Made by a program: the position numbers and the translations under genes. Source: Solimonas terrae (lineage in GTDB: Bacteria > Pseudomonadota > Gammaproteobacteria > Nevskiales > Nevskiaceae). From it: a DNA stretch of 64,000 bases. This document shows positions 1 through 23,315 of the stretch, in pieces. Position 1 is the stretch's first letter; each line of letters opens with the position of its first letter. Below the pieces are notes generated by a model, which searched no databases, had not been told where the DNA came from, and saw nothing but the letters and a program-made list of their open reading frames with translations. The stretch spans positions 558,001-622,000 of the forward strand of contig NZ_JAAMOW010000001.1 of assembly GCF_011067135.1 (NCBI RefSeq), in the 5' to 3' direction.

Positions 1-80
1 TCGATCGCGTCGCCGACATCGTTACCGTTGACGATCTCGCGCAGGTCGTGGAGCGCTTGGGGAACGCGGAACGCGCATGA
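1..80 (+). CDS. acyl carrier protein, C-terminal end (partial)
   Basis: The reading frame is open from base 3 and stops at 78–80. It encodes about 25 residues, ending VERLGNAERA, that resemble the last helix of an acyl carrier protein ('VxDLxxxVxxL'). Its stop overlaps the start of the serine palmitoyltransferase gene in an ATGA arrangement, so the two are translationally coupled. Dedicated ACPs next to serine palmitoyltransferase are known from alpha-proteobacterial ceramide clusters. The phosphopantetheine serine lies outside the window, so the assignment rests on a short tail plus context. Confidence 0.55.
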   Translation, partial: DRVADIVTVDDLAQVVERLGNAERA

Positions 81-1315
81 GCATCTTCGACAAATTCGAT
101 CACCTTCGTCAGACCTATGACAGCCTTGGCGACAGGGCGCACAATCCGTTCTCGGTCAGTTTCGATCGCATCGAATCGGCGACCGAAGGCGTCCTCGGCG
201 GCCGTCGCGTCATCCTGCTCGGCACCAACAACTATCTCGGCCTGACCTTCGATCAGCACGGCATCGACGAGGCCGTGCGCGCCGTGCAGACGCTGGGCAC
301 CGGCACCACCGGCTCGCGTGTCGCCAATGGCAGCTATGCCGGCCACGGCGCACTCGAACGCGATCTCGCGGCCTTCTTCGGACGCCGTCACTGCATGGTG
401 TTCAGTACCGGCTATCAGGCCAACCTCGGCATGCTGTCGACGATCGTCGGCCGCGGCGATCACCTGATCCTCGATTCCGACAGCCACGCCAGCATCTACG
501 ACGGCGCGCGTCTCGGCCATGCCGAGGTGATCCGCTTCCGCCACAGCGATCCGGATGATCTGTACAAACGCCTGCGCCGTCTCAAGGACGTGCCGGGCAG
601 CAAACTGATCGTCGCCGAAGGCATCTATTCGATGCTTGGCGATGTTGCGCCACTGCGCGAGATCGCGGCCGTGAAGCGCGAGATGGGCGCCTATCTGATG
701 GTCGACGAGGCACACTCGATGGGCGTGCTCGGCGAGCACGGCCGCGGTCTGGCCGAAGCCGCAGGGGTCGAGGCCGACGTCGATTTCATCGTCGGCACCT
801 TCTCGAAAAGCCTCGGCAGCGTCGGCGGCTTCTGCGTCGCCGATCTCGACGGCTTCGACATTCTGCGCGTCGCCTGCCGTCCGTACATGTTCACCGCCTC
901 GTTGCCGCCATCGATCATCGCCTCGACACGCAGCGCGCTGCAGCGTCTCGATCGCGACAAGGGCCTGCGTACGCAACTGATGGCCAATGCCACGCAATTG
1001 CATGGCGGTCTGCGGGCGCTGGGGCTGGAAGTCGGCCCGCACATCAGTCCGGTCGTATCGGTCGCACTCGACGAACCGGAGGTTGCCGTCCGTTTCTGGA
1101 ACGCACTGGTCGAAGGCGGCGTCTATCTCAATCTGGCGCTGCCGCCGGCAACACCTTCGAGCCGACCGTTGCTGCGCGCAAGCGTCAGCGCAGCGCACAG
1201 TCCGCGGCAGATTCAGAAGGCCGTCGACCTGTTCGGCGAGATCGGTCGCGAACTGGGCATCCTGCCGGCCGAACCGTTCGTCGAATTGCCGCGCATCGCG
1301 GTCGGCGCCGTCTGA
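77..1315 (+). CDS. spt: serine palmitoyltransferase (alpha-oxoamine synthase family)
   Basis: This PLP enzyme should condense L-serine with an acyl thioester to 3-oxosphinganine, the first step of sphingolipid synthesis. The 412 residues match the soluble bacterial enzyme in length. D210 and H213 in the DEAHSMG motif hold PLP, and K244 in GTFSKSLGSVGG is the Schiff-base lysine. The GTFSKS context and PYMFTASLPP loop resemble serine palmitoyltransferase more than BioF or Kbl. The start overlaps the ACP stop by four bases. There are no biotin genes nearby, while ceramide synthase, ceramide hydroxylase and lipid kinase candidates lie within 10 kb. The alternative is another alpha-oxoamine synthase. 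Confidence 0.9.
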   Translation: MSIFDKFDHLRQTYDSLGDRAHNPFSVSFDRIESATEGVLGGRRVILLGTNNYLGLTFDQHGIDEAVRAVQTLGTGTTGSRVANGSYAGHGALERDLAAFFGRRHCMVFSTGYQANLGMLSTIVGRGDHLILDSDSHASIYDGARLGHAEVIRFRHSDPDDLYKRLRRLKDVPGSKLIVAEGIYSMLGDVAPLREIAAVKREMGAYLMVDEAHSMGVLGEHGRGLAEAAGVEADVDFIVGTFSKSLGSVGGFCVADLDGFDILRVACRPYMFTASLPPSIIASTRSALQRLDRDKGLRTQLMANATQLHGGLRALGLEVGPHISPVVSVALDEPEVAVRFWNALVEGGVYLNLALPPATPSSRPLLRASVSAAHSPRQIQKAVDLFGEIGRELGILPAEPFVELPRIAVGAV

Positions 1316-1340
1316 AGCCGAGCGCAGCTGCGGGCTCGTT

Positions 1341-2279
1341 CTAGCGCAGCACACCACGACGCCAGAGTCGCCAGAGCAGACGTGGCGCGGCGATGACCGG
1401 GTGACGTCGCTGCCAATCGCTCAGTTCCAGGCGAAAGCCGGAATGCCGCTCGATCTTCCACGCCAGATAGTCGGCACCGTTGTCGAAGGTGAACGCGGCC
1501 TTTGCCAGCCGCAGTATATTCAGCGGCTTGCCGGCGAGACGGCGCAGCGACCAGGCCGCTTGTGCCGAACGCCTCGCGTCGGCGCTCAGGGCCGGCGTCA
1601 ACAGTTCTCCCGCCTCGCGATAGGCGATCCCCGCCGCCCGCCACGCCAGGGGCAGCAGCTGCGCATACCTGCCGCCGCCGTACGCGAGCAGCGACTGCGC
1701 ACGCGCGCCGCCCCGTTCGACGCGCAATTCCACCGCGTAAGTGTGCTGGTACAGCAGCTGCCAGTAGTCGGCGGCGGTGCCGGACTCGGGCCCCAGCAGC
1801 GCCGCCCATCGCGCCGCCGTCACCACCGCCTGCATCACATCGGCATCGATCGCGTCTTGTGCTGCCGCATCACGCACCCAGACACAGGCCGCCGGCTGTG
1901 AAAAGCGCGCCCAGATCGTCGTATCGATCGCGGCCGGCCGCATGCCGGCGCGCAGCTGCGCCGGACTGAGGACAGCCACCTTGGCGCGCAAGGTCTGTCC
2001 GTCGACGGTCAGCTCCTCGTACGAAACGTTGACCGGCAGCAGCTCGTTGGCGAGCGCCGCCGTACGGCTGCTGTGCCAGTCCCGCAGCGGCGACGCCACG
2101 ACGTAAAAGTCGAGCAGGCCACTGAAATCCGCATCGCGCAGCGCGGAACCGTAGAACAGCACGGCATACGCAGCCGGGCTGCGCTGCGCAAGTGCACGGG
2201 CAAATGCGACGACGCGCGGATCGAGTTCGCGATGCAGCTCGGCGGCGATCAGACTGTGCAGCACGGTGCGCGTGCTCAT
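1341..2279 (-). CDS. Tam41-like phosphatidate cytidylyltransferase family protein
   Basis: This 312-residue protein has an early YGSAL nucleotidyltransferase element, then a hydrophobic-Asp strand (LLDFYVV) and RDWH. Further on are 'AKVAVLSPAQL' and 'IWARFSQPA', which can be laid on the mitochondrial CDP-DAG synthase Tam41 pattern (YGSxxF, DFxxxV, WH, KYGVxxxxxL, lYxAGRxxKP). The match is from motif recall, not an alignment. The HYS signature of Tam41 is not evident. It is the last gene of a minus-strand operon, and its ATG overlaps the stop of the lipid kinase by ATGA. In this context it may turn a lipid phosphate, possibly ceramide-1-phosphate, into a CDP-lipid. It may instead be an uncharacterised nucleotidyltransferase. 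Confidence 0.55.
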   Translation of the reverse strand: MSTRTVLHSLIAAELHRELDPRVVAFARALAQRSPAAYAVLFYGSALRDADFSGLLDFYVVASPLRDWHSSRTAALANELLPVNVSYEELTVDGQTLRAKVAVLSPAQLRAGMRPAAIDTTIWARFSQPAACVWVRDAAAQDAIDADVMQAVVTAARWAALLGPESGTAADYWQLLYQHTYAVELRVERGGARAQSLLAYGGGRYAQLLPLAWRAAGIAYREAGELLTPALSADARRSAQAAWSLRRLAGKPLNILRLAKAAFTFDNGADYLAWKIERHSGFRLELSDWQRRHPVIAAPRLLWRLWRRGVLR

Positions 2280-3214
2280 GGCGTCACGAATTCCACGGTC
2301 GGGCCGCGACCGAATTCGACGATCGCAGCCGGTCCCGGCATGAAGACTTCACCGTCGATCACCATCGGCTCTTCGCAATGAATGCGGATGTGCTCGGCGC
2401 GACCGCTGCGATAACCATTGCTGAGGATCTGTGCCGTCGGCCGCCCGCGCAGCACGGCTCGCAGCGATCGCCAGAGCTTGCGCGGCGGCGAATCGATGTC
2501 GAGATAGCGCAGCGGTGCCGTGCGATCTTCGTCGCCCCAGAACGGCCACAGCCCCATCATCAGTTTGTTCAGCGTGGTCACCAGAAACAGAAACCGCGCC
2601 CCGTCCAGCGGTGCCGCATCGTCCACCGTTATGGCCATGGCCTCGGCCCCCAGCCACCCCGGCTGCCCCTTGACTGCACGCCATACCGCGACGGCGACCG
2701 TCACCAGCACGGACGCCTTGTGTGTCACACCCTGGGTCAGCACCTTTTCGTTGGCGTGGCGGGTGGCACGCGCAAGCACTGCCGCGCCGCCGAAGAAGCC
2801 GAGCACCGGCGACACATCGCGATCAGGCCAGCTGACACGCAGCATCGGCCGGCATTCGCTGCGACGGAAGCGATTCTCCTGTGCCGCGCGCAGTACACGC
2901 TGCAGCGCGTCGGCCCCGAAACCGGCGGACCCGACATCGGAGGCCACCGTGTTGGCATTGCCGGCCGCCAGCAGCGACAGGCGCGGCAGCCGCTCGCCGT
3001 AGGCCTGCGGCAACAGGGTGGTCACGTCGCGCAGCGTGCCGTCACCGCCGCTGACGATCAGCAGTTCGACCCCTTGCGACGCGAAGTCACGCAAGGTGTC
3101 GAGCAGTTCGGCTGGCGTGCCCGGGCTCGCCGACGGCAGCGTCGGTGGAATCCGCAGATCGACGCCACGGCGGTTGCGCTGACTGCGCGGATTGTGGATC
3201 AGCCCCGCGCGCAT
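2276..3214 (-). CDS. diacylglycerol/ceramide kinase family lipid kinase
   Basis: The 312-residue protein opens with the NPRS nucleotide-binding segment (residues 8–11) and carries the GGDGT signature at 56–60 of the DAGK catalytic fold. A later 'VIDGE' segment fits the family's C-terminal beta-sandwich. The open frame runs further upstream, but the ATG at 3214 is chosen because it gives the family N-terminus and overlaps the upstream stop (TGATG). Downstream it overlaps the Tam41-like gene by four bases. Bacterial ceramide kinases belong to this family, and the neighbours argue for ceramide or a sphingoid base as substrate. Diacylglycerol cannot be excluded. Confidence 0.8.
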   Translation of the reverse strand: MRAGLIHNPRSQRNRRGVDLRIPPTLPSASPGTPAELLDTLRDFASQGVELLIVSGGDGTLRDVTTLLPQAYGERLPRLSLLAAGNANTVASDVGSAGFGADALQRVLRAAQENRFRRSECRPMLRVSWPDRDVSPVLGFFGGAAVLARATRHANEKVLTQGVTHKASVLVTVAVAVWRAVKGQPGWLGAEAMAITVDDAAPLDGARFLFLVTTLNKLMMGLWPFWGDEDRTAPLRYLDIDSPPRKLWRSLRAVLRGRPTAQILSNGYRSGRAEHIRIHCEEPMVIDGEVFMPGPAAIVEFGRGPTVEFVTP

Positions 3215-4398
3215 CAAGCGGCAAGCCAGGACGACAGCGGACCGCGGCGCCGGGCGATCATGCCCTGCACGATGCAGCTTGCATGAACGACGAAGCAGAT
3301 CAGAACCCAGATCGCGACGATCTGCATGCCGATGTCCGGGCGCCCGAACAGAACGCTGATGCTCAGGATCACGAGGTTCGGATTGCGACGAGCCGTGATC
3401 ATGCGGAAGAAACTGTCGAACGGACGCCAGACGTGCATCGCCATGCCGAACAGCAACTGGAAGATCCCCTCCTCCAGGCGCTGGGCGACGTATCCGACAA
3501 GAACGATCGCCAGAACCAGATCGTGATCCGGCAGGCTGCAGCCCGCAACGGAGAGGCCCGCGATCCAGGCCCACCACCAGAATGGCGGATGAATGAGATC
3601 GATGCCGTGATCGAAGACGTCTCCGAATTTCGACGATTGCAATGTGACGCGCGCGAGCTTGCCGTCGACGGTGTCGAGGAAGGTCATGATCCACGCCGCC
3701 AGCAGACCGCCCAGATAGTGGCCGTCGCGAAACTGGAAGAAGGCCACGATCACGAAGGCCAGGCTGGCCAGCGTCACCTGATTCGGGGAAATGCCGAATC
3801 GCGCGCAGAAGCGCGTGACATGCCGCGCCGGCCAAGGCCAGACATACTTGGTGACGATATCCGTCACGCCCTTGTACGAGGCAGCAAACGTGCGCTTCTC
3901 GATCGCGGAAACGGTGCTCGCATCCAGGGCGCCGAGAAACGCGGTTTCACGCTTGCGCAGACGCGCGTTGTAGGTGCCGACGAGCGTGGCGGGTGTCGCG
4001 ACCCGAAACGCGGACGCGAGATTCGCCCCTGGCTCGCCGAGACGAGCAGCGACATCGCGGCACTGCGCCGCATCGACGACGGCGGCCACCAACCGGTCAC
4101 TGCCTTCGTCCAGCAGCACCGTGCCGGCCGTTGCTGCCGCCAGCGCCACCACCAGCGACTCATCGAACACCCAGCCGCAATGCAGCAACAGCACGCGCCC
4201 GGACTGCGCAGCGGCGACCGCCGGCTCTTCGCCGACATCGCGGACACCGGCGCGCTGCAACTGCCGACGCAGTCGTTCGGCGCCGCTGAGCCCCCAGATC
4301 CGCACATCGCTGTCGCCGAGAAGAACGGCAATCGGGGGCGTCGCACCGGAAGTCTCGCCGGCGTTCCGGCCTTCGGCCGATGGTGCCTGTGTCATCAT
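3214..4398 (-). CDS. CDP-alcohol phosphatidyltransferase with extra N-terminal domain
   Basis: This integral membrane enzyme transfers a phospho-alcohol or phospho-lipid unit from a CDP donor. The full signature DxxDGxxARx8GxxxDxxxD is present from about residue 242 (DTVDGKLAR, then GDVFDHGID). At least five membrane segments follow or surround it. The first ~180 residues form a soluble alpha/beta-looking domain that I do not recognise and that ordinary phosphatidyltransferases lack. It recalls the two-domain layout of bifunctional inositol-phosphate cytidylyl/phosphatidyl transferases but has no visible GxGxR cytidylyltransferase loop. It is first in the operon with the lipid kinase and Tam41-like gene, and divergent from the metallophosphatase with only 29 bp between. 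Head group unknown. Confidence 0.8.
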   Translation of the reverse strand: MMTQAPSAEGRNAGETSGATPPIAVLLGDSDVRIWGLSGAERLRRQLQRAGVRDVGEEPAVAAAQSGRVLLLHCGWVFDESLVVALAAATAGTVLLDEGSDRLVAAVVDAAQCRDVAARLGEPGANLASAFRVATPATLVGTYNARLRKRETAFLGALDASTVSAIEKRTFAASYKGVTDIVTKYVWPWPARHVTRFCARFGISPNQVTLASLAFVIVAFFQFRDGHYLGGLLAAWIMTFLDTVDGKLARVTLQSSKFGDVFDHGIDLIHPPFWWWAWIAGLSVAGCSLPDHDLVLAIVLVGYVAQRLEEGIFQLLFGMAMHVWRPFDSFFRMITARRNPNLVILSISVLFGRPDIGMQIVAIWVLICFVVHASCIVQGMIARRRGPLSSWLAA

Positions 4399-4427
4399 GG
4401 AGCCCTGAGTAAAGCCACGTATTATCC

Positions 4428-5342
4428 ATGACCGCGTTCACGCTTGCGCACTTTTCCGATCCGCACCTGCCGTACGAACCGCGACTCGACTGGCGCCAGC
4501 GTTTTTCCAAGCGTCTGCTCAGCGCCTGGTCCTGGCATCGCAAGCGCCGTGAGGTGCAGCGCCACGACATCGTCACCGCCCTGACCGCCGACGTGCGCGC
4601 CGCCCGCCCCGATCACATCGGCGTCACCGGCGATATCACCAATTTCTCGCTGCCCGGCGAATTCACGCAGGCCGCCGCCTGGCTGGAAACGCTGGGCCGC
4701 GCCGACGATGTCAGCATCGTGCCCGGCAATCACGATGCGCTGGTCAAGCTCGATCCGGCGGAGGGCTGGAGCAAATGGCAGCATTGGATGCGCAGCGACG
4801 ACGGTGACGTCGACAACTGGCCCTACGTGCGCGTGCGCGGCGAGATCGCGCTGATCGGCGTCAATTCCGCGGTGCCGACTGCACCGCTGCTGGCCGGCGG
4901 ACGGATCGGCGACATCCAGCTCGCCGCCCTGGAAGCACGGCTGCAAGCGCAGCGTGGCCGCTTCCGCATCGTCCTGGTCCATCATCCGCTTGCGGATGCG
5001 GCGGTGTCGCGCCGCAAGGCGCTCGCCGACCGCGCCGCGCTGCGCGACGTGCTGCGCCGCGCCGGTTGCGAGCTGGTGCTGCACGGCCATGCACGCGACG
5101 CCCGCCTTGACCTGCTCGGCGGCGACGGCCAGCCCATCCTGTGTCTGGGCCTGCCGTCCGCGTCGGCGATGCCGAACGCACATGACGCCGGCGCGCGCTG
5201 GCATGCCTTGCGAATCGATGCCGACAGCGACGACAGCTGGCGACTGGACGTCGCGACCCGCATCTGGGACGAGCCCAGTGCCGCCTTCGTCTCCGGCGGC
5301 AGCTTCCGCTATCGCATTACCCGCCCGGAGCCTCGTCCATGA
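4428..5342 (+). CDS. calcineurin-like metallophosphoesterase
   Basis: The 304 residues show the whole metallophosphatase set: DxH at D11/H13 (FSDPHLP), GDITN, GNHD, a paired His in VHHPL and GHARD near the C-terminus. There is no signal peptide, so it should act in the cytosol. The family includes lipid pyrophosphatases such as LpxH and phosphatidyl-phosphate phosphatases. In this locus it could trim a phosphorylated or CDP-linked sphingolipid intermediate, but the substrate is not visible. It overlaps the following HIT gene by ATGA. Confidence 0.8.
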   Translation: MTAFTLAHFSDPHLPYEPRLDWRQRFSKRLLSAWSWHRKRREVQRHDIVTALTADVRAARPDHIGVTGDITNFSLPGEFTQAAAWLETLGRADDVSIVPGNHDALVKLDPAEGWSKWQHWMRSDDGDVDNWPYVRVRGEIALIGVNSAVPTAPLLAGGRIGDIQLAALEARLQAQRGRFRIVLVHHPLADAAVSRRKALADRAALRDVLRRAGCELVLHGHARDARLDLLGGDGQPILCLGLPSASAMPNAHDAGARWHALRIDADSDDSWRLDVATRIWDEPSAAFVSGGSFRYRITRPEPRP

Positions 5343-5788
5343 GCAATGCCACCGCACGCAAGTTCGGCTATCCGGACACCTTGATCGCGGAAGTCGGGCC
5401 CTGGCTGCTGCTGCTGCGCCCGAAGCAGCCGACGCTCGGCTCGCTGGTCCTGGTCTGCACTGAAGACGCAAGGGCCTTCGGTGATCTCAGCGGCGAGGCC
5501 TACGCGCAGTTGCGCGACGCCGTACGCGGTGCCGAACGCATGCTGAAAGGATTTGTCGGCTACGAGCGCATCAACTATCTGATGCTGATGATGATCGACC
5601 CGGACGTGCACTACCACGTCATTCCCCGCTATGCCGGCAGCCGCGAATTCGCCGCTGCGAGCTACGTCGATCACGGCTGGCCCGGGCCGCCGGCGCTGGG
5701 CGAAACCGTCGATCCAGGACCCGCGGCCCAGGCCGAACTGATCGCCGAATTGCGCAGGCGATGGGCGCAGCCCGATCCGGCTGCATGA
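5339..5788 (+). CDS. HIT-family hydrolase/transferase with DxHxH triad
   Basis: This 149-residue protein has the HIT fold signature around residues 88–98. The motif reads D89-V-H91-Y-H93-V-I-P-R, so the first histidine of the usual HxHxH is aspartate while the catalytic middle position, H91, is kept. HIT proteins cleave or transfer nucleoside monophosphates, including from CDP- or ADP-linked compounds. Its place between the metallophosphatase (4-base overlap) and lptF suggests a step on a nucleotide-activated lipid or head group, which is inference. LptF follows after 13 bp. Confidence 0.75.
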   Translation: MSNATARKFGYPDTLIAEVGPWLLLLRPKQPTLGSLVLVCTEDARAFGDLSGEAYAQLRDAVRGAERMLKGFVGYERINYLMLMMIDPDVHYHVIPRYAGSREFAAASYVDHGWPGPPALGETVDPGPAAQAELIAELRRRWAQPDPAA

Positions 5789-5801
5789 GCAGGCCGGCTC
5801 C

Positions 5802-7007
5802 GTGAACGTACCGGCCCGCAACACGCGGATCGTCGACCGTTACCTGCTCGGCCTGCTGGTCCAGCCGCTGACGGTGTCGATTGGCGTCGTGCTGGTCGCA
5901 CTGTTGCTGGAACGACTGCTGCGCCTGTTCAATCTGGTCGCAGCCAGTGGCTCGGCGCTCGATGCGGTGCTGTTGATGATCGCCAACCTGGTGCCCTATT
6001 ACCTGGGCCTGGCGCTGCCGGCGGCTTTCTTCGCCAGCATTTTCATGGTCGTCGCCAAGCTCGGCGACGACAACGAACTCGACGCGCTGCTGGCGGCCGG
6101 CCGGTCGATCGTGCAGCTCGCGCTGCCGTTCGTGATGGTGGCCGTTGCACTGGCGGTGTTCGCGTTCTATCTCTACGGCTACCTGCAGCCGCACAGCCGC
6201 TACCGCTACCGCGCGGTCTTTTACGAAGCCCTGCACGAAGGCTGGAACGCGCGCGCCGAGGAGAACGTGTTTGCCGACGCCGGCCGCGGCTTCACGCTGA
6301 CGGCCGACAAGGTCGACGCCAGCGGCCGGCAGATGAGCGGTGTCTTCATCCGCCGCCACACCACCGCTTACGACGAAATCATCACGTCCGAAACCGGCAC
6401 CCTGCTGCCGACCGACGATGGCCGACACCTGCGGCTCGAACTCGGCATCGGCCGCATGGTCCGCGAACAGCGCGGCGGCGATGTGGACGACACGCACTTT
6501 GCACACGCCGTCGTCAACGAGGATTTCAATCCGCAGGCGCCACCGTTCCGCGCGCGCGGCGACAGCGAGCGCGAACTGACCTTGCCCGAACTCTGGTCGG
6601 CCATGCACGAAGCCAGTCCGGTGGTCTCGCATGCCGAACTTGCCGGCGAATTCCATGGTCGCCTGGCGCGCTCCGCGGCACTGCCGTTCCTGCCCTTGCT
6701 GGCCTTCGCGCTCGGCATGGCCGCCAAGCGCGGCCAGCGTGCGCCCAGCGTCGCGCTGGCCTGCCTGATGCTGCTGGCGCTGCACCACGGCGTGCAGTTC
6801 GGCGAAAGCCTGGCGCAGACCGGTCATGTGTCGGCGATCGTCGCGGTCTGGACGCCGGTCGTGGTGTTCGCGATCGTCAGCTGCTGGCTGTTCGGGGCCA
6901 GCCTGAAAAGCCCGGGCGACAATCCCCTGACGCGTGCGGTCGCCAGCGTCGAGCGCGCGCTGGAAGGCACCTCGCCGCTGCGGCGCAAGCCGCGGAGCGC
7001 GACGTGA
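5802..7007 (+). CDS. lptF: LptF-like permease subunit (YjgP/YjgQ family)
   Basis: The 401 residues show the LptF/G layout: three N-terminal membrane helices, a central periplasmic region of ~140 residues, and three C-terminal helices. The family supplies the membrane part of the LptB2FGC lipopolysaccharide extractor. The start is GTG at 5802; an ATG at 5785 stops after six codons. A GTGA overlap joins it to lptG. In gammaproteobacteria the LPS pair usually sits beside pepA. Here it lies inside a sphingolipid locus, so it may be a paralogue that exports the sphingolipid. No lptB-type ATPase gene is in the window. Confidence 0.8.
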   Translation: MNVPARNTRIVDRYLLGLLVQPLTVSIGVVLVALLLERLLRLFNLVAASGSALDAVLLMIANLVPYYLGLALPAAFFASIFMVVAKLGDDNELDALLAAGRSIVQLALPFVMVAVALAVFAFYLYGYLQPHSRYRYRAVFYEALHEGWNARAEENVFADAGRGFTLTADKVDASGRQMSGVFIRRHTTAYDEIITSETGTLLPTDDGRHLRLELGIGRMVREQRGGDVDDTHFAHAVVNEDFNPQAPPFRARGDSERELTLPELWSAMHEASPVVSHAELAGEFHGRLARSAALPFLPLLAFALGMAAKRGQRAPSVALACLMLLALHHGVQFGESLAQTGHVSAIVAVWTPVVVFAIVSCWLFGASLKSPGDNPLTRAVASVERALEGTSPLRRKPRSAT

Positions 7008-8089
7008 AAGGCCCGCTGGCGTCCTATCTTCGGCGCATGCTTCTGGGCCAGACGGTCGGCCTACTGCTGGCGCTGGCGGCGCTGATGCAGGTACTGGATC
7101 TGCTCGACGCCACCACCGACATTCTCAAACGCCATCTCGGTCTGCGCGGTGTCCTGCACTACGCCGCCTTGCGCACACCGGCCGAACTGATGCTGGCCAT
7201 GCCGCTCGCGGCCCTGCTCGGTGCACTGTTCACGTTCTACACACTGGCCAGGCGGCGCGAGCTGGTGGCGATCCGCGCCACCGGCGTCAATCTGCGCATG
7301 GTCCTGATCGCCATGCTGCCGGTGCCGCTGCTGTTCGCAAGCGCTCAGTTCTGGGTCGCCGACCAGTTGGTGCCGACAACCGAAACCGCGCTCGCCGCAT
7401 GGTGGAATTCGACGACGCCCCCACCCGGCGACGACGACGCGCAGAGCTCCGGCAACACCCTTTGGGCGCACACCGGCGACGGCCTCGCCGCCTTCGACCG
7501 GATCAGCGCCGACGGCCGGCACATCGGCGGCCTGCATCTGTATCGACGCGGTGCGGACGGCCAGTTTGCAGTACGGCTGGAGGCTAGGCAGGCCGACTGG
7601 GACGGTAGCCGATGGCAGCTGGCGGGCGCTGATCGTCTGGAGCTGCGCGACGACAGCGTCGCGCGCACGCCACCGGACAGCGACATCTGGCAAACCAATC
7701 TGCGTCCGGACGATCTGCTGCGCATCGACTCGCCGCAGCCGCAGCTGTCGAGCACGGTGCTGATCGGCGTACTGGCCGGCGCCCGCGTCGGCGCGCGACC
7801 GGCCAGCTACTACCACACGGCGCTTTATCGCCGCTTCAGTGCACCGCTCGCCTCGCTGGTCATGCTGCTGCTCGCGCTGCCGGCGACCCGCGCCGCTGGC
7901 CGCAGTGGCGAGGGCGGCGGCCTGCTGCTGCTTTCCCTGGGCCTCGGGCTGCTGTTCGTGCTCGTCGACGGACTGCTGGCGGCGCTCGGCGATGGCGGCC
8001 GCGTGCCACCGCTGCTGGCCAGTGCCGGCGCGCCACTGGCCTTCGCCGCACTAGGCCTGACGATCCTGCACCGTTACGATTCGACCTGA
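7004..8089 (+). CDS. lptG: LptG-like permease subunit (YjgP/YjgQ family)
   Basis: This is the partner of the preceding LptF-like protein, with 361 residues, three N-terminal helices, a periplasmic beta-rich middle region and three C-terminal helices (the last near LLFVLVDGLLAAL). The GTG start at 7004 shares bases with the lptF stop, so equal expression is likely. The ceramide synthase candidate follows after 38 bp on the same strand, tying the transporter pair to ceramide synthesis. Whether it handles LPS or a sphingolipid depends on whether another lptFG exists elsewhere in the genome. Confidence 0.78.
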   Translation: MKGPLASYLRRMLLGQTVGLLLALAALMQVLDLLDATTDILKRHLGLRGVLHYAALRTPAELMLAMPLAALLGALFTFYTLARRRELVAIRATGVNLRMVLIAMLPVPLLFASAQFWVADQLVPTTETALAAWWNSTTPPPGDDDAQSSGNTLWAHTGDGLAAFDRISADGRHIGGLHLYRRGADGQFAVRLEARQADWDGSRWQLAGADRLELRDDSVARTPPDSDIWQTNLRPDDLLRIDSPQPQLSSTVLIGVLAGARVGARPASYYHTALYRRFSAPLASLVMLLLALPATRAAGRSGEGGGLLLLSLGLGLLFVLVDGLLAALGDGGRVPPLLASAGAPLAFAALGLTILHRYDST

Positions 8090-8127
8090 CCAAGAACCAG
8101 AACCGGCCGCAGCCGGAAGACCCTCAC

Positions 8128-9261
8128 ATGACTTCCTCCGTCGAAATGGTGCCCGTGCGCAGCGCAGCCGAGATGCGGCGCTTCATTCGCGTGCAGGCGC
8201 GTCTGCACGCACACGACCCCCTGTTCATCGCACCGCTCGAACTCGAGCGCAGCGAGGCCTTCTCCGCGAAGAAAAATCCGTTTTTCGCGCATGCCGACGT
8301 GCAGTTCTGGATTGCACAGCGCGATGGCGTCGATGTCGGCCGCATCAGCGCGCAAATCGATCACCTGTCGCCGATGCTGCGCGACGAGGGTGCGGGTCAC
8401 TTCGGCCTGATCGAGGCGGAAGACGATCCGGCCATCTTTGCCGCCCTGTTCGAAACCGCAGAGGCCTGGCTGCGCGAGCGCGGCTGCCGGCGTGCGCTGG
8501 GCCCGTTCAATCTGTCGATCAACGAGGAAACCGGCCTGCTGGTGCGCGGCTTCGACACACCGCCGATGCTGATGATGGGTCACGATCAGCCGCATGTCGG
8601 CACCCGCATCGAGGCCCAGGGTTACGAGGGCGTCAAGGATCTGCTCGCCTACATCCTGGAAACCGCGCACGCGCCGCCAGCTGGCTTGCAGCGCATGCTG
8701 GCGCAGCCGCCGAAGAACCTGCGCGTGCGGCCCCTCGACAAGAAGCGCTACCGCGAGGACATCGGCACCATCACCGCGATCTTCAACGACGCCTGGTCGC
8801 AGAACTGGGGTTTTGTTCCGTATACGGAGGCGGAGGTCGAACACCTGGCACAGGCCCTCAAGCCGCTGCTCGATCCGCAACTGGTGCCGATCGCCGAGCT
8901 CGATGGTGAAGCGGTTGCCTTCGGCGTGCTGCTGCCCAATCTGAACGAAGCGATCCGCGACTTCGGCGGCAAGCTGCTGCCATTCAACTGGGCCAGGCTG
9001 CTGTGGCGCCTGAAAGTTCGTGGTGTCGGCACCGGCCGCGTGCCGCTGATGGGAGTGCGCCGCAGCCTCGGCGCCGATTTCACGGCGCGCGCCGTCCCCT
9101 TCTTCGTGATCGACGCGATGCGTCAGCGCTGTCTGCAGCTCGGCATCCGTCAGGTCGAGCTGTCGTGGATATTGGAAAACAATGCGCCGATGCGCCGCTT
9201 GCTGGAAATGATCGGCAGCCGCGACTACAAGACTTATCGCGTCTACGGCAAGGCCCTGTGA
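8128..9261 (+). CDS. bCerS-type N-acyltransferase (bacterial ceramide synthase candidate)
   Basis: The 377-residue protein is of the GNAT-like family that includes the Caulobacter ceramide synthase bCerS and E. coli YghO. The characteristic block GPFNLSINEETG followed by FDTPPMLMMGH is present around residues 131–155. A second GNAT-like half ends with the WILENNAPMRRLLE segment typical of acetyl/acyl-CoA binding. It should N-acylate 3-oxosphinganine or sphinganine. GGAAG precedes the ATG by eight bases. Its stop overlaps the next gene (GTGA). The family call is firm; ceramide synthesis follows from the neighbours. Confidence 0.85.
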   Translation: MTSSVEMVPVRSAAEMRRFIRVQARLHAHDPLFIAPLELERSEAFSAKKNPFFAHADVQFWIAQRDGVDVGRISAQIDHLSPMLRDEGAGHFGLIEAEDDPAIFAALFETAEAWLRERGCRRALGPFNLSINEETGLLVRGFDTPPMLMMGHDQPHVGTRIEAQGYEGVKDLLAYILETAHAPPAGLQRMLAQPPKNLRVRPLDKKRYREDIGTITAIFNDAWSQNWGFVPYTEAEVEHLAQALKPLLDPQLVPIAELDGEAVAFGVLLPNLNEAIRDFGGKLLPFNWARLLWRLKVRGVGTGRVPLMGVRRSLGADFTARAVPFFVIDAMRQRCLQLGIRQVELSWILENNAPMRRLLEMIGSRDYKTYRVYGKAL

Positions 9262-10040
9262 AGACAGCCGCCGGGCTGACGGCGCTGGTGCTCGCCGGTT
9301 CGCGTGGCCCGCACGAAGCACTCGCCGTCTACGCAGGCGTCAGTCACAAGGCCCTGATCGAGATCGGTGGCCGGACGATGGTCGAGCGCGTGGTCGAGGC
9401 GCTGGCCGGGCTGCCGGAGATTGCACGAATCGTCGTCATGATCGAGGAACCGGCGCTGCTCGATGGGCTCGCCGGTCTGCGTCGGCTTGGCACGCGCGTG
9501 CGGACGCTGCGCGCGGCTGGCAGCCCGAGCCTCAGCGTCAATGCGGCGCTCGAACAGCTCGGCACGCCGCTGCTGGTGACAACCGCAGATCACGCCCTGC
9601 TCGAAACCGCCTGGGTGCGACATTTTCTCGAGCACTGCCCGGCCGATCGCGACGTCTGCGTCGCGCTCGCGCGGCGCCAGGAGGTGGTGGCTGCGGTACC
9701 CGACACCCAGCGTACCTGGCTGCGCTTCGCAGACGGACAGTTTTCGGGCTGCAATCTGTTCTACCTCGCGACGCCGGCCGCCGGCCGCGTCGTCCGGTTC
9801 TGGCGCCAGCTGGAGAACGACCGCAAACAGCCGCTGAAGATGCTGCGCCGTGTCGGCTACGGCAGCGCGCTGCGTTACGTGCTGGGTCGACTGTCGCTGG
9901 TCAGTGCCCTGGACCGCATCGGGGAGCGCTGCGACGCGCGCGCGGCCATGGTCGAACTGCCGTTCGGTCGCGCAGCGGTCGATGTCGACAAGCCGTCCGA
10001 CCTCGACCTCGTGCGCCGGCTGGTCGAACCGGGCGCGTGA
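9258..10040 (+). CDS. MobA-like nucleotidyltransferase (NTP_transf_3 family)
   Basis: The 260 residues start with LTALVLAGSRG, the nucleotide-binding loop of MobA-like transferases, followed by a conserved HKALIEIGGRTMVERV segment and a TTADHALL motif carrying the metal-binding Asp. The GTG at 9258 overlaps the ceramide synthase stop; the open frame runs further upstream inside that gene and is not used. No molybdopterin genes are nearby. Coupling to the ceramide synthase suggests it activates a polar head-group precursor as an NDP derivative, but the substrate is unknown. It converges on the hydroxylase gene with a 3-bp gap. Confidence 0.75.
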   Translation: MKTAAGLTALVLAGSRGPHEALAVYAGVSHKALIEIGGRTMVERVVEALAGLPEIARIVVMIEEPALLDGLAGLRRLGTRVRTLRAAGSPSLSVNAALEQLGTPLLVTTADHALLETAWVRHFLEHCPADRDVCVALARRQEVVAAVPDTQRTWLRFADGQFSGCNLFYLATPAAGRVVRFWRQLENDRKQPLKMLRRVGYGSALRYVLGRLSLVSALDRIGERCDARAAMVELPFGRAAVDVDKPSDLDLVRRLVEPGA

Positions 10041-10043
10041 AAA

Positions 10044-10691
10044 TCAGGAACGGCCGCGACTGCGCAACACGATGTCCCAGAGCGGCGAGCTGACACCGTA
10101 GCGACGGTCCGGCTCGACGAAGTGGTGCTGCATGTGGTTGCGCTTGAGCCATGCGAACCATGGCATGCGCCAGCTCGCGTGATGCAGCGCGTAGTGCATG
10201 AGGTCGTAGGCGACGTAGCCGCTCATGAATCCGGCCACGAACGATTGCAGGCCACTCGCCGGCAGGACCAGATAGAACAGGCCGTAGAACATCATCGTGA
10301 TCGGCAGGCTCGCCGACGGCGGCATCACCAGCCGATAGGCGTCGTTCGGATAATCGTGATGTACGCCATGAATGATGAAATGCAGGCGCTGGCTCCACTG
10401 TGCGCGCGGTTCGTAGTGAAAGGCCCAGCGGTGCAGCACGTATTCGGTAGGCGTCCACGTCAGCATGCCGCCGACGAACCAGAGCGCCATCGACCCCGGT
10501 GCGACATGCTCGATCGCTGCCGCATGAATCAGCAACAACACGACCAGCGGCGAGTACACCAGCGGCGGCACCCACCAGTAGACCTTGGACAGCGCCTCCA
10601 TCCAGCCGAGCCGGAACATGCGTACCGACTCGCGCGAATTCGAGACGAAGCGCTTGCGTGGGACGGCGCCGGTCGACAGCACCGCTTGCAT
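10044..10691 (-). CDS. fatty-acid 2-hydroxylase (FA2H/Scs7-like membrane di-iron oxygenase)
   Basis: This protein has the His boxes of the sterol desaturase/fatty acid hydroxylase superfamily: HRWAFH, HGVHH, HYALHH and NHMQHHF. The HHDYPNDAYRLVMPP and YGVSSPLWD blocks are those of ceramide fatty-acid 2-hydroxylases (FA2H, yeast Scs7) rather than sterol enzymes. It would 2-hydroxylate the N-acyl chain of ceramide in the membrane. There are about four membrane segments. ATG at 10691 gives 215 residues and an 8-bp gap to the upstream gene; a TTG at 10712 would add seven residues. The Scs7 cytochrome b5 domain is absent, so electrons must come from another protein. Confidence 0.85.
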   Translation of the reverse strand: MQAVLSTGAVPRKRFVSNSRESVRMFRLGWMEALSKVYWWVPPLVYSPLVVLLLIHAAAIEHVAPGSMALWFVGGMLTWTPTEYVLHRWAFHYEPRAQWSQRLHFIIHGVHHDYPNDAYRLVMPPSASLPITMMFYGLFYLVLPASGLQSFVAGFMSGYVAYDLMHYALHHASWRMPWFAWLKRNHMQHHFVEPDRRYGVSSPLWDIVLRSRGRS

Positions 10692-10698
10692 GCCGATC

Positions 10699-11481
10699 TC
10701 AGCCACTGGCAAACACCGCCCGCGACTTGGACGCAGGCGTCAGCCAGCGCGCCGCCCAGGACCCGGTCATCTCGCGATTGCGCTCGACATCCGGCAGGAA
10801 ATCCATCTCCCCCCACTCGAGTCCTTCGATCGACACCGTACGGACGTCGCAACCCTCGTTGACGAGGCGGTTGATGGTCGACAGGTACCAGAGCTTGAGC
10901 CCCTCGCCGCTGCGCATCATGCCTTCCAGATCGGCAATGAAACGCTCGGCGCCGGCGGCATCGAAACGCAGAAAGCCGATCGATTCGCCGTCCACCGTCG
11001 ACATCGGCAGCGACTTGCCGATCGCACGCAGGCGCAAGCCATCGGTCTCGACCTTCATGTCGTCGCTGTCATAGTGCGACTTGCGATCGATCGTGACCGT
11101 CACCGGCGCAGCCGGCGCGGCCAGCAGACGTTCGGCGATTTCCGGTTCGATCAGGGTGTCGCCGTTGAGGATGAGGCCGCCGCCACGCAGTTCCTCGCGA
11201 ACCAGCCAGCAGGTCGCAAGATTGTCGCTGACGTTGTAGAACGGGTTGAAGACCGTACGCACGCGCATGCCGGCCGGGGCATGCAGCGCCAGCATCGCGT
11301 CCACCTGTTCGGCGGCAAAGCCGGTGACGATCACGGCCTCGCCGACACCGGCGCGGGCCAGCGCCAGCAGCTGCCATTCGAGCAGGCTGCGTCCGGACAA
11401 TTCAATCAGGCACTTGGGACGACTTTCGGTCAGTGGCAGCAGGCGACTGCCCTGCCCCGCGCTGAGAATCAGCACCTTCAT
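10699..11481 (-). CDS. sugar/choline-phosphate-type nucleotidyltransferase
   Basis: The 260 residues begin MKVLILSAGQGSRLLPLT, the GxGxRLxPLT loop of sugar-1-phosphate and phosphocholine/inositol-phosphate nucleotidyltransferases (LicC-like), followed by RPKCLIEL and LNGDTL. These enzymes make CDP- or UDP-activated head groups. The ATG at 11481 fits the family; an ATG at 11526 would add 15 residues. It lies 8 bp upstream of the FA 2-hydroxylase gene on the same strand. Activation of a polar alcohol for the CDP-alcohol phosphatidyltransferase is the simplest reading. The nucleotide and alcohol cannot be told from sequence. Confidence 0.75.
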   Translation of the reverse strand: MKVLILSAGQGSRLLPLTESRPKCLIELSGRSLLEWQLLALARAGVGEAVIVTGFAAEQVDAMLALHAPAGMRVRTVFNPFYNVSDNLATCWLVREELRGGGLILNGDTLIEPEIAERLLAAPAAPVTVTIDRKSHYDSDDMKVETDGLRLRAIGKSLPMSTVDGESIGFLRFDAAGAERFIADLEGMMRSGEGLKLWYLSTINRLVNEGCDVRTVSIEGLEWGEMDFLPDVERNREMTGSWAARWLTPASKSRAVFASG

Positions 11482-11633
11482 CGCGGACGGCTTGTCCGTC
11501 CCGCGCCCGGGAATTCCATCATCCATAGCATCCGCACCTGATTGATCACATGCGGCGCTGCCCCCCGGCTGCGCCGACCTATGTGACGCCTATGTTACGG
11601 CGCTGGCGACGAAGCTGCACGGATCATGCCGTT

Positions 11634-13130
11634 TCAGGCGCCGCGGTCTCGCACCACGCGGAGTTCGGGACGCCGGACCCGGTCGCCGGTGCCGGGCAAT
11701 GGCCGGAGCTGCTCCAGCGCACGCACGCACTGGTCGAGCATCTGGCTGATCAGGGTCTGGTTGCGGATCATCTCGATTCTGGGCCAGGTCGCGCGTTCGC
11801 CTTCGAGCATGAAGCGCTTGATCGATTCCATCGATGGATTGGCGGTGACGTTCGCGTACCGCCACAGGCTGACGTCCGGCAGGATGTTGATGTTGCCGCG
11901 GTAATCCTGGTCGAGGATCGACGAGGCAGCGTCCAGGGTGCGCCGCACGCCGCTGACCGGCAGGTTCTGGCGCGCCAGATCGAGAATGCTCTTGCTCTGG
12001 CCGCGCACGGTCGAATAGAGGTAATCGCGTGCGGCATTGCGCAGGCCACGATCGCCCGGTTCGCGTTTGCCGGACACGAACGGCAACACGTGCGGATTGG
12101 TCTGGCTGACGATGAAGTGGTTGACGTTGTGCAGGCGGCGCATGCGCAGGATCGGCAGATCCGATTTCAGCGAGCCGTCATTCCAGCGCAGCAAGGGCAT
12201 GTATGGCACGCGTTCGTCATGCTCGTCCTGGGTCATCAGCATGACCGGCGGAAACAGCAGCGGTACCGCGCAGGACGCCAGCACCGCCTCGCGGATGTAC
12301 AGGTACGGGAAGGTCAGGTGATTGAGCAACCGCGGCTGCTGATTGGTGCCGGCCGGCGAGACGGTGATATTGGTGACGCGCCCGGAAAGATTCTGCGCCT
12401 GCTCGAAGGTCAGATCGCGGACGTTGGCGGCGATCGCCTTGCGCAACTGGTCCTGGTCCATCAACGCGCGGCGCCGGATCACGTCGCGCATGGGCAGCAT
12501 GCGCCAGAAATGGTAGTACGCGGATTCCGGATCGAGCAGGTCCTCGACCTCGTGCGCGGCGCGTGTGCCGACGGTTGCGCAGACGACCGAGCCGGCGCTC
12601 GATCCGGACATCACCAGCGGCACGAGGCTTTCGCGGAACAACGCCTTGACAACGCCGACATGAAACAGGCCAAGCGTCGCGCCGCCGGACAGCATCAGCG
12701 CCGATCGTCCGTAGCTGAGCTCGATCTCCTTGAAGAATTTCAGCTTGGCGGCATGCGGCAGCTCGGCCAGTTCGGTTTCGCAGATCCACTGCAGCGCAGA
12801 GGCCACTTCACGCGTGTACTCGGCGACCAGCTGCTTGGTGCCGACACGGGCATGCGCATAAAGGCGCGGGTTGCCGATATTGCCGAGGTTCCAGTGCAGA
12901 CCCTGCCGCAGATGGTGGATCAGCTTGAGGATGTCGTGCTGGTCCCGATACTGGCGGATCTGCCGCAGACGTGAGCGGATCAGGCGCCAGTCGTAATCAT
13001 CCGATGCCTCGTCCGCCTGCCATTCGTCCCAGCCTTCGCGCCGGTCGAGTTCGTTCGCCGCATCGCGCCACTGCGAATAGCTCGTGGACGCTTCGACCTC
13101 GCGATGCAGTTGACGGCTTCTCGGATCCAA
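11634..13130 (-). CDS. patatin-like lipase with DUF3336 domain (TGL3/SDP1-like)
   Basis: This 498-residue protein has an N-terminal DUF3336 region (AANELDRREG to about residue 60) and a patatin domain with oxyanion loop SGGATLG, nucleophile elbow GSSAG and catalytic Asp in NDGSLKSDLP. This pairing is typical of eukaryotic triacylglycerol lipases Tgl3/4 and SDP1. No signal peptide is seen. No in-frame ATG fits the start; TTG at 13130 is preceded by GGAG at a good distance. It points the same way as the nucleotidyltransferase and hydroxylase, 152 bp away. A role in freeing acyl chains for ceramide synthesis is possible but unproven. Confidence 0.8.
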   Translation of the reverse strand: MDPRSRQLHREVEASTSYSQWRDAANELDRREGWDEWQADEASDDYDWRLIRSRLRQIRQYRDQHDILKLIHHLRQGLHWNLGNIGNPRLYAHARVGTKQLVAEYTREVASALQWICETELAELPHAAKLKFFKEIELSYGRSALMLSGGATLGLFHVGVVKALFRESLVPLVMSGSSAGSVVCATVGTRAAHEVEDLLDPESAYYHFWRMLPMRDVIRRRALMDQDQLRKAIAANVRDLTFEQAQNLSGRVTNITVSPAGTNQQPRLLNHLTFPYLYIREAVLASCAVPLLFPPVMLMTQDEHDERVPYMPLLRWNDGSLKSDLPILRMRRLHNVNHFIVSQTNPHVLPFVSGKREPGDRGLRNAARDYLYSTVRGQSKSILDLARQNLPVSGVRRTLDAASSILDQDYRGNINILPDVSLWRYANVTANPSMESIKRFMLEGERATWPRIEMIRNQTLISQMLDQCVRALEQLRPLPGTGDRVRRPELRVVRDRGA

Positions 13131-13291
13131 AACCAGCTCCGGTCGAAAATTGAATGATCGTTATGGTGGGGGCAAGCGCCCCGGCGTCGCAAGCACGCCG
13201 GCACCGTCCTTCGCCGGATTGCCGCCGCCGGTCCGCAAAGCCGGCCGATTACACTCGCTACATTCCGCTTCGCCTGAGAGATCGCCCGATC

Positions 13292-14203
13292 ATGAGTTCT
13301 TCCGTCGCGCCCGTCCTGCAGGGCCTCAACCGCATCATTCTCGGCAAGGACGAGCAGCTCAAGCTGGTGCTCGCCTGTCTGCTGGCCCGCGGCCACCTGC
13401 TGATCGAGGACATTCCAGGCATGGGCAAGACCACGCTCGCGCTGGCTCTGGCGCGGGTGCTCGGCCTGCACTTCCAGCGCGTGCAATTCACCAGCGACCT
13501 GTTGCCGGCCGACATTCTCGGCGTGTCCGTGTTTGAGACCGCGACCAGCAGCTTTCGTTTCGTCCCCGGCGCGATTTTTTCGCAGCTGGTGCTTGCCGAC
13601 GAGATCAATCGCGCCAGCCCGAAGACGCAGTCGGCGCTGCTGGAAGCGATGGAGGAGCGTCAGGTCACCGCCGAAGGGGAAACCCGGCCGCTGCCGCAGC
13701 CGTTCTTCGTCATCGCCACCCAGAATCCGGCCTATCAACTCGGCACCTTTCCGCTGCCCGAGTCGCAGCTCGACCGCTTTCTGATGCGCATCTCGCTCGG
13801 CTATCCATCGCCGGATGCGGAACGCCAGCTGCTGCTCGAACGCGAACGCCGCGATCTGCTCGCCGAAATCGAACCGGCACTGGCGCCCGCGCAGCTGATC
13901 GAACTGCAGCAACGGGTACGCGAGGTGCGCGCCGCGCCGGCGCTGATCGACTACATCCTGGCGCTGGTGCAACGCACGCGCGAACTGCCCGGCCTGCGGC
14001 AGGGACTGTCGCCGCGCGCCGGACTCGGCCTGCGCCGCGCCGCGCAGGCCTGGGCCTTCATCGAAGGCCGCAGCGGCGTGATTCCGGAAGACGTGCAGGC
14101 CGTGTTCGCGGCCGTCGTCAACCACCGGCTGATCACGGCTGCCGAACGCGAAGGTGCGGCGACCAGCGCCGCGGAAATTCTCGCGCAGGTCGCGATTCCC
14201 TGA
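13292..14203 (+). CDS. MoxR-family AAA+ ATPase
   Basis: The 303-residue protein has Walker A in IPGMGKTTLA, Walker B in LADEINRA and the SALLEAMEERQVT segment typical of MoxR. MoxR ATPases work with DUF58 proteins, which here begin 10 bp downstream. The open frame extends upstream to 13154, but the ATG at 13292 gives the family N-terminus. A TACACT hexamer about 37 bp upstream may be a -10 element. It is divergent from the patatin gene. Confidence 0.9.
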   Translation: MSSSVAPVLQGLNRIILGKDEQLKLVLACLLARGHLLIEDIPGMGKTTLALALARVLGLHFQRVQFTSDLLPADILGVSVFETATSSFRFVPGAIFSQLVLADEINRASPKTQSALLEAMEERQVTAEGETRPLPQPFFVIATQNPAYQLGTFPLPESQLDRFLMRISLGYPSPDAERQLLLERERRDLLAEIEPALAPAQLIELQQRVREVRAAPALIDYILALVQRTRELPGLRQGLSPRAGLGLRRAAQAWAFIEGRSGVIPEDVQAVFAAVVNHRLITAAEREGAATSAAEILAQVAIP

Positions 14204-14213
14204 GCCGCCGGCC

Positions 14214-22478: not shown

Positions 22479-23315
22479 TCACGCCGCCGGCCGGCGCCGC
22501 ATGCGGCGCCACAGCAGGATCGCCGGGCCGGACAGGGCGTAAGCGAAAAACACCAGGAACAGGATGCGCGGCGGATCGATCAGCACCAGCGCGAACACGC
22601 CGATCACCGCGGCCAGCGACATGAAGCGTGTGCGCGTCTTCAGGTTGACCTTCTTGAAACTGTTGTAGCGCACACTCGAGACCATCGACAACGCGGTTGC
22701 CAGCGTCAGCGGCGCGGCGAAGCCGAGCACCTCGCTGCCGGTCAGCGGCACATGACCCGACACCCAGGCGAACAGCGAACGGCTGTCGTCGACGCAGCTC
22801 CAGACGAAGAAAGTGATCACCGCCGCCGCCGCCGGGCTCGGCACCCCGAAGAAATCCTTGTTGGAACTGGCGATGGCCGCCAGCACGTTGAAGCGCGCCA
22901 GACGCAGGGCGGCGCAGGCGGCATAGGCGAACGCGATCACCCAGCCGAGCTTGCCGCCGATCCAGCGATAGTCGGCGAGATAGTGCAGCGAGAACGCCCA
23001 GATCAGCACCGCCGGCGCAATGCCGAACGCCACCATGTCGCACAGCGAATCGTATTCCTTGCCGAAGTCGGTCTGCGTATTGGTCAGCCGCGCGACCCGG
23101 CCGTCGAGTCCGTCGGCGATCATCGCGCCGAAAATGCCGAACACTGCGGCCTCGAAGTGCCCGGCAGTCGCCATCACGATCGCGTAGAAACCGCCGAACA
23201 AGGTGCCGGTCGTCAGCAGGTTCGGCACCAGATAAATGCCCTTGCGACGAGGCTTGAGCGCTTGCTTGTTTTCCATGAGCCCTGCGACAGTCTGTCTTGT
23301 CCGATTGGCCGGCAT
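22479..23315 (-). CDS. pssA: CDP-diacylglycerol–serine O-phosphatidyltransferase
   Basis: The 278-residue membrane protein has the CDP-alcohol phosphatidyltransferase signature as DGLDGRVARLTNTQTDFGKE then YDSLCD near residues 68–95, with about seven membrane segments. The KGIYLVPNLLT N-terminus and length fit the PssA type that lies next to ilvC in many proteobacteria. It makes phosphatidylserine, the precursor of phosphatidylethanolamine. A bidirectional-looking hairpin separates it from ilvC, so it is probably transcribed on its own. Confidence 0.93.
   Translation of the reverse strand: MPANRTRQTVAGLMENKQALKPRRKGIYLVPNLLTTGTLFGGFYAIVMATAGHFEAAVFGIFGAMIADGLDGRVARLTNTQTDFGKEYDSLCDMVAFGIAPAVLIWAFSLHYLADYRWIGGKLGWVIAFAYAACAALRLARFNVLAAIASSNKDFFGVPSPAAAAVITFFVWSCVDDSRSLFAWVSGHVPLTGSEVLGFAAPLTLATALSMVSSVRYNSFKKVNLKTRTRFMSLAAVIGVFALVLIDPPRILFLVFFAYALSGPAILLWRRMRRRPAA

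Follow-up and report, generated by a model that had tools for sequence, protein, structure and literature searches.

The DNA analysed here, a stretch of 64,000 nt from Solimonas terrae (the window; positions 558001-622000 of contig 11 in a 4.42-Mb genome that is 99.67% complete), carries a sphingolipid gene cluster, whose gene content, order, family assignments, predicted folds and recurrence in other genomes are described below. Going by its sequence, the locus belongs with the gene clusters already known for ceramide-(di)phosphoglycerate (CPG/CPG2), and a lipid of this type would be its product. Two features go beyond the literature that we found: the Tam41 fold predicted for CpgC, and the presence of a gene for an Scs7-type hydroxylase within the cluster. 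We consider it probable that the chromosome carries here a CPG/CPG2 cluster like that of Caulobacter, with a cytidine diphosphate (CDP)-ceramide step and with hydroxylation of the N-acyl chain by the Scs7-type enzyme. A broader view, towards which we lean slightly, is that bacterial ceramide phospholipids are made via CDP-ceramide, with CpgC as a cytidylyltransferase descended from Tam41, in parallel to the CDP-diacylglycerol (CDP-DAG) pathway, and that the Nevskiaceae have joined an Scs7-type ceramide 2-hydroxylase to this pathway.

In the proposed pathway AasR, AcpR, serine palmitoyltransferase (SPT), CerR and the bacterial ceramide synthase (bCerS) would lead to ceramide, which CerK would convert to ceramide-1-phosphate. 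CpgC would then most likely form CDP-ceramide from ceramide-1-phosphate and cytidine triphosphate (CTP), and a CDP-alcohol phosphotransferase would use CDP-ceramide to make ceramide phosphoglycerate. CpgD would provide CDP-glycerate, CpgA would add further phosphoglycerate, and the lipid would reach the outer membrane through export by LptF2/LptG2. The hydroxylase, encoded on the same strand right behind cpgD, would introduce a 2-hydroxyl group into the N-acyl chain. The kinase, the activity of CpgD and the genetics are known from work on Caulobacter; CDP-ceramide and its transferase, the substrate and position of the hydroxylase, the export and the lipid itself are what we infer for the window.

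CpgC and the Tam41 fold

In Caulobacter cpgC is required for the conversion of ceramide-1-phosphate to ceramide phosphoglycerate, by a "yet unidentified mechanism" in the words of the available part of PMC12275187, and a preprint of May 2026 repeats "unidentified mechanism" for CpgC in its accessible section (PMC13228409). We predicted the structure of the window CpgC with AlphaFold2 (predicted local distance difference test (pLDDT) 92.3, predicted template modelling score (pTM) 0.90) and compared it to the PDB with Foldseek. Five of the 905 matches with E<=10 had E<=0.001, and all five are Tam41 CDP-DAG synthases (2.6e-8 to 2.5e-7), among them 6ig2, 6ig4 and the bacterial enzyme 7ecd, which contains CTP-Mg and gave 2.6e-8. 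Outside this group the best E value was 2.1e-3. Tam41 joins cytidine monophosphate to phosphatidate (PMC7018664, as far as available).

Sequence comparison of family members points in the same direction. Aligning the window CpgC with 23 relatives from spt loci gave a family (A2, n=24) in which two members, the window protein not among them, pass the Pfam model PF09139 (Tam41_Mmp37; 43.0 and 26.3 bits, cut-off 24). For one of these two, L036, phmmer returned Tam41 of S. pombe (PDB 6ig2) with an E value of 2.7e-4, and in this alignment the residues K100, R125, P129, Y181 and R186 (numbered as in the window protein), all of them invariant in A2, are identical to those of Tam41. Across 143 genomes of the class the sole match to PF09139 is the cpgC of L036.

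Gene neighbourhoods were compared in 65 fetched spt loci, with limits that we chose for calling homologues (E 1e-4 and >60 bits). Homologues of cpgC and of cerK each occur in 28 of the 65 loci, 27 of which are shared. The CDP-alcohol phosphotransferase motif, also of our own choice, is present in 19/29 loci with cpgC (window included) versus 4/37 loci without it. The genome has its own CdsA, so that CpgC is not needed for CDP-DAG, as well as a PgsA and, at about 22761-23231 of the window, another protein of the PF01066 family. We propose ceramide-1-phosphate as the substrate of CpgC since it is the product of the neighbouring kinase and the counterpart of phosphatidate. Considering the modelled structure, CpgC is most likely a CTP:ceramide-1-phosphate cytidylyltransferase. 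In the one literature library that was searched, to which outside papers and preprints do not belong, no paper paired any two of CDP-ceramide, ceramide phosphoglycerate and Tam41, and a search for CpgC, ceramide 1-phosphate and cytidylyltransferase in Caulobacter turned up only the work on CpgD.

Several results weigh against this assignment. The window CpgC alone matched no Pfam family, and PF09139 has no match in the genome of the window. Neither the A2 profile (best E 0.12, to another nucleotidyltransferase) nor the relative L042 retrieved a Tam41 from the PDB, and TM-scores to Tam41 lie at 0.49-0.54 when normalised by the query and at 0.55-0.61 when normalised by the target. Moreover, 10/29 cpgC loci are without the phosphotransferase motif (the locus of L036 ends at a contig end and that of L085 covers 7 kb), and in Caulobacter CPG is formed without cpgA (PMC11324152, available part). 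Because of these last two observations, no one transferase can be fixed for CDP-ceramide. The locus may instead be an ordinary CPG/CPG2 cluster in which CpgC, a protein with nucleotidyltransferase fold, has another role, such as the transfer of glycerate straight onto ceramide-1-phosphate or the modification of a non-lipid acceptor. The formation of CPG without CpgA would fit such a role, and so would L166, L167, L169 and L173, which keep cerK and cpgC and whose fetched 20 kb contain no motif of a CDP-alcohol phosphotransferase. However, most of the length of CpgC resembles Tam41 more closely than any other fold, with the other nucleotidyltransferases well behind (from 2.1e-3), and ceramide-1-phosphate matches phosphatidate on the sphingolipid side. 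We therefore regard another role of CpgC as possible but rather doubtful.

The Scs7-type hydroxylase

The earlier note on this DNA, made from the sequence alone, had described an FA2H-like hydroxylase, and both the fold and the histidines are indeed those of Scs7. In the PDB the protein sequence matched Scs7 only (two entries, E 4.5e-30). The predicted structure (pLDDT 86.4) again found Scs7 alone at E<=0.001 in Foldseek, with TM-scores of 0.76-0.77, and the structural alignment has 35% identity, with an RLVMPP stretch in both proteins. Twelve histidines align with those of Scs7 and ten are invariant in 24/24 relatives; these ten we take to be the di-metal ligands of Scs7. In Caulobacter the candidate for hydroxylation is CC_0202, a DesA family protein encoded outside the cluster and proposed to act on the N-acyl chain (PMC11324152, available part). 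Judged from the genes, the cluster of the window appears to supply another enzyme for this modification; a DesA-type route may exist in this genome as well, since it has nine PF00487 desaturase-family matches. In the literature listings of the library searched, we found no paper that describes a gene of the FA2H type within a ceramide cluster of bacteria.

The hydroxylase is uncommon (matches at E<=1e-10 in 8/274 genomes of the class and 7/398 of the phylum sample), and within the order 15/85 genomes have it at E<=1e-25. SPT is present in 14 of these 15 genomes versus 36/85 of the order overall, numbers that are not corrected for relatedness. Besides the window, the gene lies inside the ceramide cluster in nine other loci of the family and in the distant gammaproteobacterial genome G127; L086 shows its edge. 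Among named genomes, at least 587 relatives were confirmed, and 74 of the best 80 are from Bacteroidota by record title. An spt or bCerS homologue lies in the fetched flank of 47 of these 80 (38/56 among loci of at least 19 kb), and 40 of the 80 have a bCerS homologue there. The gene recurs in ceramide loci of Nevskiaceae, of another gammaproteobacterial family, of another class and of Bacteroidota. In the hydroxylase tree the rows of the family form two groups, one of them together with two Bacteroidota rows (support 97), which suggests that the family acquired its hydroxylases more than once, although this tree rests on a short alignment and leaves many branchings unresolved. In the same tree the protein of G291, from the family of the window, is at zero branch length from that of L241, a Nevskia sp. 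metagenome-assembled genome (Nevskiaceae), so that this family is most likely Nevskiaceae.

Some observations weigh against this role of the hydroxylase. No hydroxylase is found in 22 of the 36 SPT genomes of the order, G292 has the hydroxylase and no SPT match, and in G291, G293 and G301 hydroxylase and spt are on different contigs (short ones in G293 and G301). Among 13 fetched neighbourhoods of distant homologues, only L149 and L150 hold spt/cerS homologues. Instead of the N-acyl chain, the enzyme might hydroxylate C4 of the sphingoid base, like Sur2, or a free fatty acid or another lipid. PF04116 is a broad family, the PDB match taken alone is biased because solved structures among the close relatives may be limited to Scs7, and G292 lends itself to this explanation. 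On the other side, the identity to Scs7, the RLVMPP stretch and the common histidines, the recurrent place in ceramide loci with bCerS homologues flanking half of the best 80 relatives, and the function of myxobacterial FA2H relatives (PMC10002949, available part) all argue for the N-acyl chain, and we consider a different substrate unlikely. It is also very improbable that no lipid is made because the cluster is silent or has decayed. SPT is without a match in 9/11 genomes of the genus, but every reading frame of the cluster is open, short gene overlaps are retained, and distant genomes have the same architecture.

Some loci found on the way hold other candidates for ceramide tailoring. In L149 (6205-10463) and L150 (6407-10583), both from family f201, a head-to-tail row of genes encodes an alpha-oxoamine synthase (AOS), a bCerS-like protein, a desaturase and an FA2H-like hydroxylase, a eukaryote-like operon for ceramide tailoring. 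The AOS enzyme of L149 is nearest to the bioF model, and its desaturase has a sphingolipid delta4-desaturase domain (PF08557) above cut-off; by title, no report of a bacterial delta4-desaturase locus was present in the literature listing. A second, distant PF04116-like protein, perhaps another hydroxylase, is encoded in ceramide loci of L040, L111, L165 and L169, adjoining bCerS in L040, L165 and L169.

Layout and origin of the cluster

The core genes span 1-11.5 kb of the window, and three further genes lie directly upstream in the same contig (L003 = G000:C11:540001-558200), the last of them running across the border of the window. Names with CC numbers are given by position.

L003:14882-16675, upstream of the window: acyl ligase aasR; AMP-binding, NF006624 fatty acyl-AMP ligase 816 bits (cut-off 600)
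L003:16647-17639, upstream of the window: reductase cerR, Epimerase-type
L003:17772-18080, + strand, 3' end at window 1..80: sphingolipid acyl carrier protein acpR; PP-binding
77..1315, + strand: serine palmitoyltransferase spt; NF047599 equivalog and trees (see below)
1341..2279, - strand: cpgC (CC_1161), putative Tam41-type nucleotidyltransferase; predicted fold, matches of family members
2276..3214, - strand: cerK/cpgB (CC_1160), ceramide kinase-type; PF00781 DAGK_cat 33.9 bits (cut-off 23.6), in a scan that began at 3187 and so left out the first nine residues
3214..4398, - strand: cpgA (CC_1159), CDP-alcohol phosphotransferase; PF01066 39.5 bits at residues 204-301, motif scan
4428..5342, + strand: metallophosphoesterase (CC_1158); PF00149 48 bits, homologue in 24/65 spt loci
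5339..5788, + strand: small protein (CC_1157), HIT-like by our own reading only; no match in Pfam or NCBIfam, homologue in 21/65 spt loci
5802..7007, + strand: lptF2, LptF-type permease, proposed lipid exporter; PF03739, LptF 189.1 bits (under the equivalog cut-off of 230)
7004..8089, + strand: lptG2, LptG-type permease; PF03739, LptG 228.7 bits (under the equivalog cut-off of 240)
8128..9261, + strand: bCerS (cerS, CC_1154), GNAT-like acyltransferase; PF00583 20.1 bits, slightly below the cut-off of 20.7
9258..10040, + strand: ntp1 (CC_1153), MobA-like nucleoside triphosphate (NTP) transferase; PF12804 54.2 bits, PDB 2dpw E 7.6e-19
10044..10712, - strand: FA2H/Scs7-type hydroxylase, putative ceramide N-acyl 2-hydroxylase; PF04116 63.9 bits, PDB match Scs7
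10699..11526, - strand: cpgD (CC_1152), cytidylyltransferase of phosphocholine/inositol-phosphate type; PF12804/PF00483, PDB 1jyk (CTP:phosphocholine cytidylyltransferase) E 1.2e-17, 60% to the L162/L163 copies
11634..13130, - strand: DUF3336-patatin lipase, neighbour outside the cluster; PF11815, PF01734

After spt on the plus strand, cpgC-cerK-cpgA are on the minus strand, followed by a plus-strand run from the metallophosphoesterase gene to ntp1 and by the minus-strand pair of hydroxylase and cpgD. Little space is left between the genes: cpgA/cerK overlap by 1 base, cerK/cpgC, lptF2/lptG2 and acpR/spt by 4 bases each, and bCerS/ntp1 by a GTGA. Hydroxylase and cpgD overlap by 14 bases with the listed TTG start, or are 7 bases apart with the first ATG. 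A scan for promoters and terminators gave no higher signal than shuffled sequences. CpgA has about 190 residues N-terminal to its phosphotransferase domain that match no Pfam family, possibly a worn NTP-transferase domain.

These data confirm the observation of the earlier note and partly support its interpretation. Domain matches place SPT, bCerS, hydroxylase, kinase, head-group and transport genes at or near the positions it gave, and the upstream genes complete the sphingolipid locus that it had proposed for a gammaproteobacterium. The reductase was predicted upstream of base 1 next to the acyl carrier protein, where cerR and acpR were found, and the extension of the sequence that it suggested also yielded the acyl ligase. 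Sphingoid bases would be expected in the organism from this gene set. The lipase, which the note had counted as an added part of the cluster, was rejected as a component, with a homologue in only 1/65 spt loci (L089, of the same genus).

SPT of the window scored 663.8 bits with NF047599 (cut-off 500) and 312.3 with the bioF model (cut-off 426). In the tree the BioF of the same genome groups with the distant enzymes of L149/L150 (support 75), apart from the window SPT. Scores and tree reject a BioF identity, as the phylogeny called for by the note was to decide; no Kbl or ALAS row is in the tree. The trees are quick searches with support from the Shimodaira-Hasegawa-like approximate likelihood ratio test (SH-aLRT) only, and the divergent row L112 (incomplete genome, same class) was included in the first SPT tree and left out of the second. 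The window SPT, 20 family members and L162-L164 form one set in both (SH-aLRT 98-99), apart from other gammaproteobacteria and from family f3 of the same order; four members of the family with another SPT type also fall outside. The bCerS tree gives the same picture, with 18 rows of the family joined to L162-L164 (support 99). Here the window protein groups with bCerS-like proteins of spt loci, all of them uncharacterised sequences, as the note had expected; it has 52-57% identity to cerS of L162/L163, and a bCerS homologue is present in 49/65 spt loci. L162-L170, L172 and L173, like L149 and L150, belong to the same phylum and another class and are presumably Alphaproteobacteria. The placement in the trees points to a transfer of the cluster between classes. 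For the clusters of Azotobacter vinelandii and Pseudomonas luteola an alphaproteobacterial origin is thought possible by the authors of PMC11324152 (available part).

Other family members and L162/L163 carry nearly the same genes in the same order, so that the cluster is more than a chance assembly. Gammaproteobacterial clusters are already in print, and SPT is above the NF047599 cut-off in 36/85 genomes of the order (2/11 in the genus), which does not agree with the rarity that the note implied.

Other SPT loci differ from that of the window. L105-L108, four genomes of the same family, have another SPT type and no cerS homologue within the fetched 16-20 kb. L044 and L045 (gammaproteobacterial family f112) have a divergent SPT grouping with Bacteroidota rows, and their loci hold two CDP-alcohol phosphotransferase motifs without cpgC.

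Farther upstream of aasR there are genes for an MsbA-like ATP-binding cassette transporter, two glycosyltransferase-like proteins and an ELM1-like protein. The ELM1-family gene (L003:13660-14802) has a homologue within the fetched spt locus in 15/65 cases and may link bacterial ELM1 proteins to sphingolipids. After the cluster (13280-17188) follow genes for MoxR, DUF58 and TgpA-like transglutaminase proteins. Only L089 among the spt loci also has moxR, and these genes look like ordinary neighbours.

Significance and comparison with known systems

The cluster is useful as a lead, as it exposes CpgC as a likely Tam41-type protein and represents a variant of the CPG/CPG2 kind that is extended by an Scs7-type hydroxylase. 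The step from ceramide-1-phosphate to ceramide phosphoglycerate is presented without a mechanism in the available parts of PMC12275187 and PMC13228409, and the Tam41 assignment reduces the question to one simple assay. If true, this function of CpgC would define CDP-ceramide as a lipid intermediate. Hydroxylation of outer-membrane sphingolipids has been linked to the encounter with cationic peptides (PMC11324152, available part). The hydroxylase gene beside cpgD offers a genetic handle on this modification in bacteria, and strains with and without it provide a natural comparison.

The CC_1165-CC_1152 region of Caulobacter has five genes for ceramide and six for the head group, and it also encodes a second set of Lpt permeases (PMC11324152, available part). 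The five ceramide genes aasR, cerR, acpR, spt and cerS are all present here, as are, by family, order and comparison to L162/L163, the six head-group genes 1161, 1160, 1159, 1158, 1153 and 1152. The likeness to Caulobacter crescentus thus extends over aasR, cerR, acpR, spt, 1161, 1160, 1159, 1158, 1157, lptF2, lptG2, cerS, 1153 and 1152, with orthology assigned by published position and by L162/L163, not from Caulobacter sequences. The earlier note had assumed a different gene order. This is not supported: the Caulobacter numbering in print gives the order seen here, and between aasR and cpgD the loci L162 and L163 agree with it in gene order and orientation, apart from the hydroxylase, which they lack. 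In contrast to Caulobacter crescentus, the window cluster adds the Scs7-type hydroxylase after cpgD.

Azotobacter vinelandii and Pseudomonas luteola, the gammaproteobacteria for which such clusters were reported (PMC11324152, available part), each have one contiguous cluster as in the window. The same part of that report describes them without CC_1158, at whose place the window has a metallophosphoesterase gene. In Bacteroidota (Pedobacter, Mucilaginibacter) loci of the type spt-cerS-cerR-...-CDP-OH-hydroxylase hold, among the matches listed, the closest hydroxylase homologues outside the family, often in ceramide loci; by our own reading their head-group genes are different ones (inositol-phosphate-synthase-like, PgpA-like).

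With Tam41/Mmp37 the predicted CpgC structure shares the fold over 278-301 alignment columns (PDB 7ecd, 6ig2, 6ig4), while identity is 12-14% and the expected substrate is ceramide-1-phosphate instead of phosphatidate. The hydroxylase resembles yeast Scs7 (PDB 4zr0, 4zr1) in fold, aligned histidines and the RLVMPP stretch, but the only domain matched in the 222-residue window protein is PF04116, with no cytochrome b5 domain. Among other bacteria, myxobacteria have functional FA2H relatives, and Sphingomonas uses cytochrome P450 enzymes (PMC10002949, available part).

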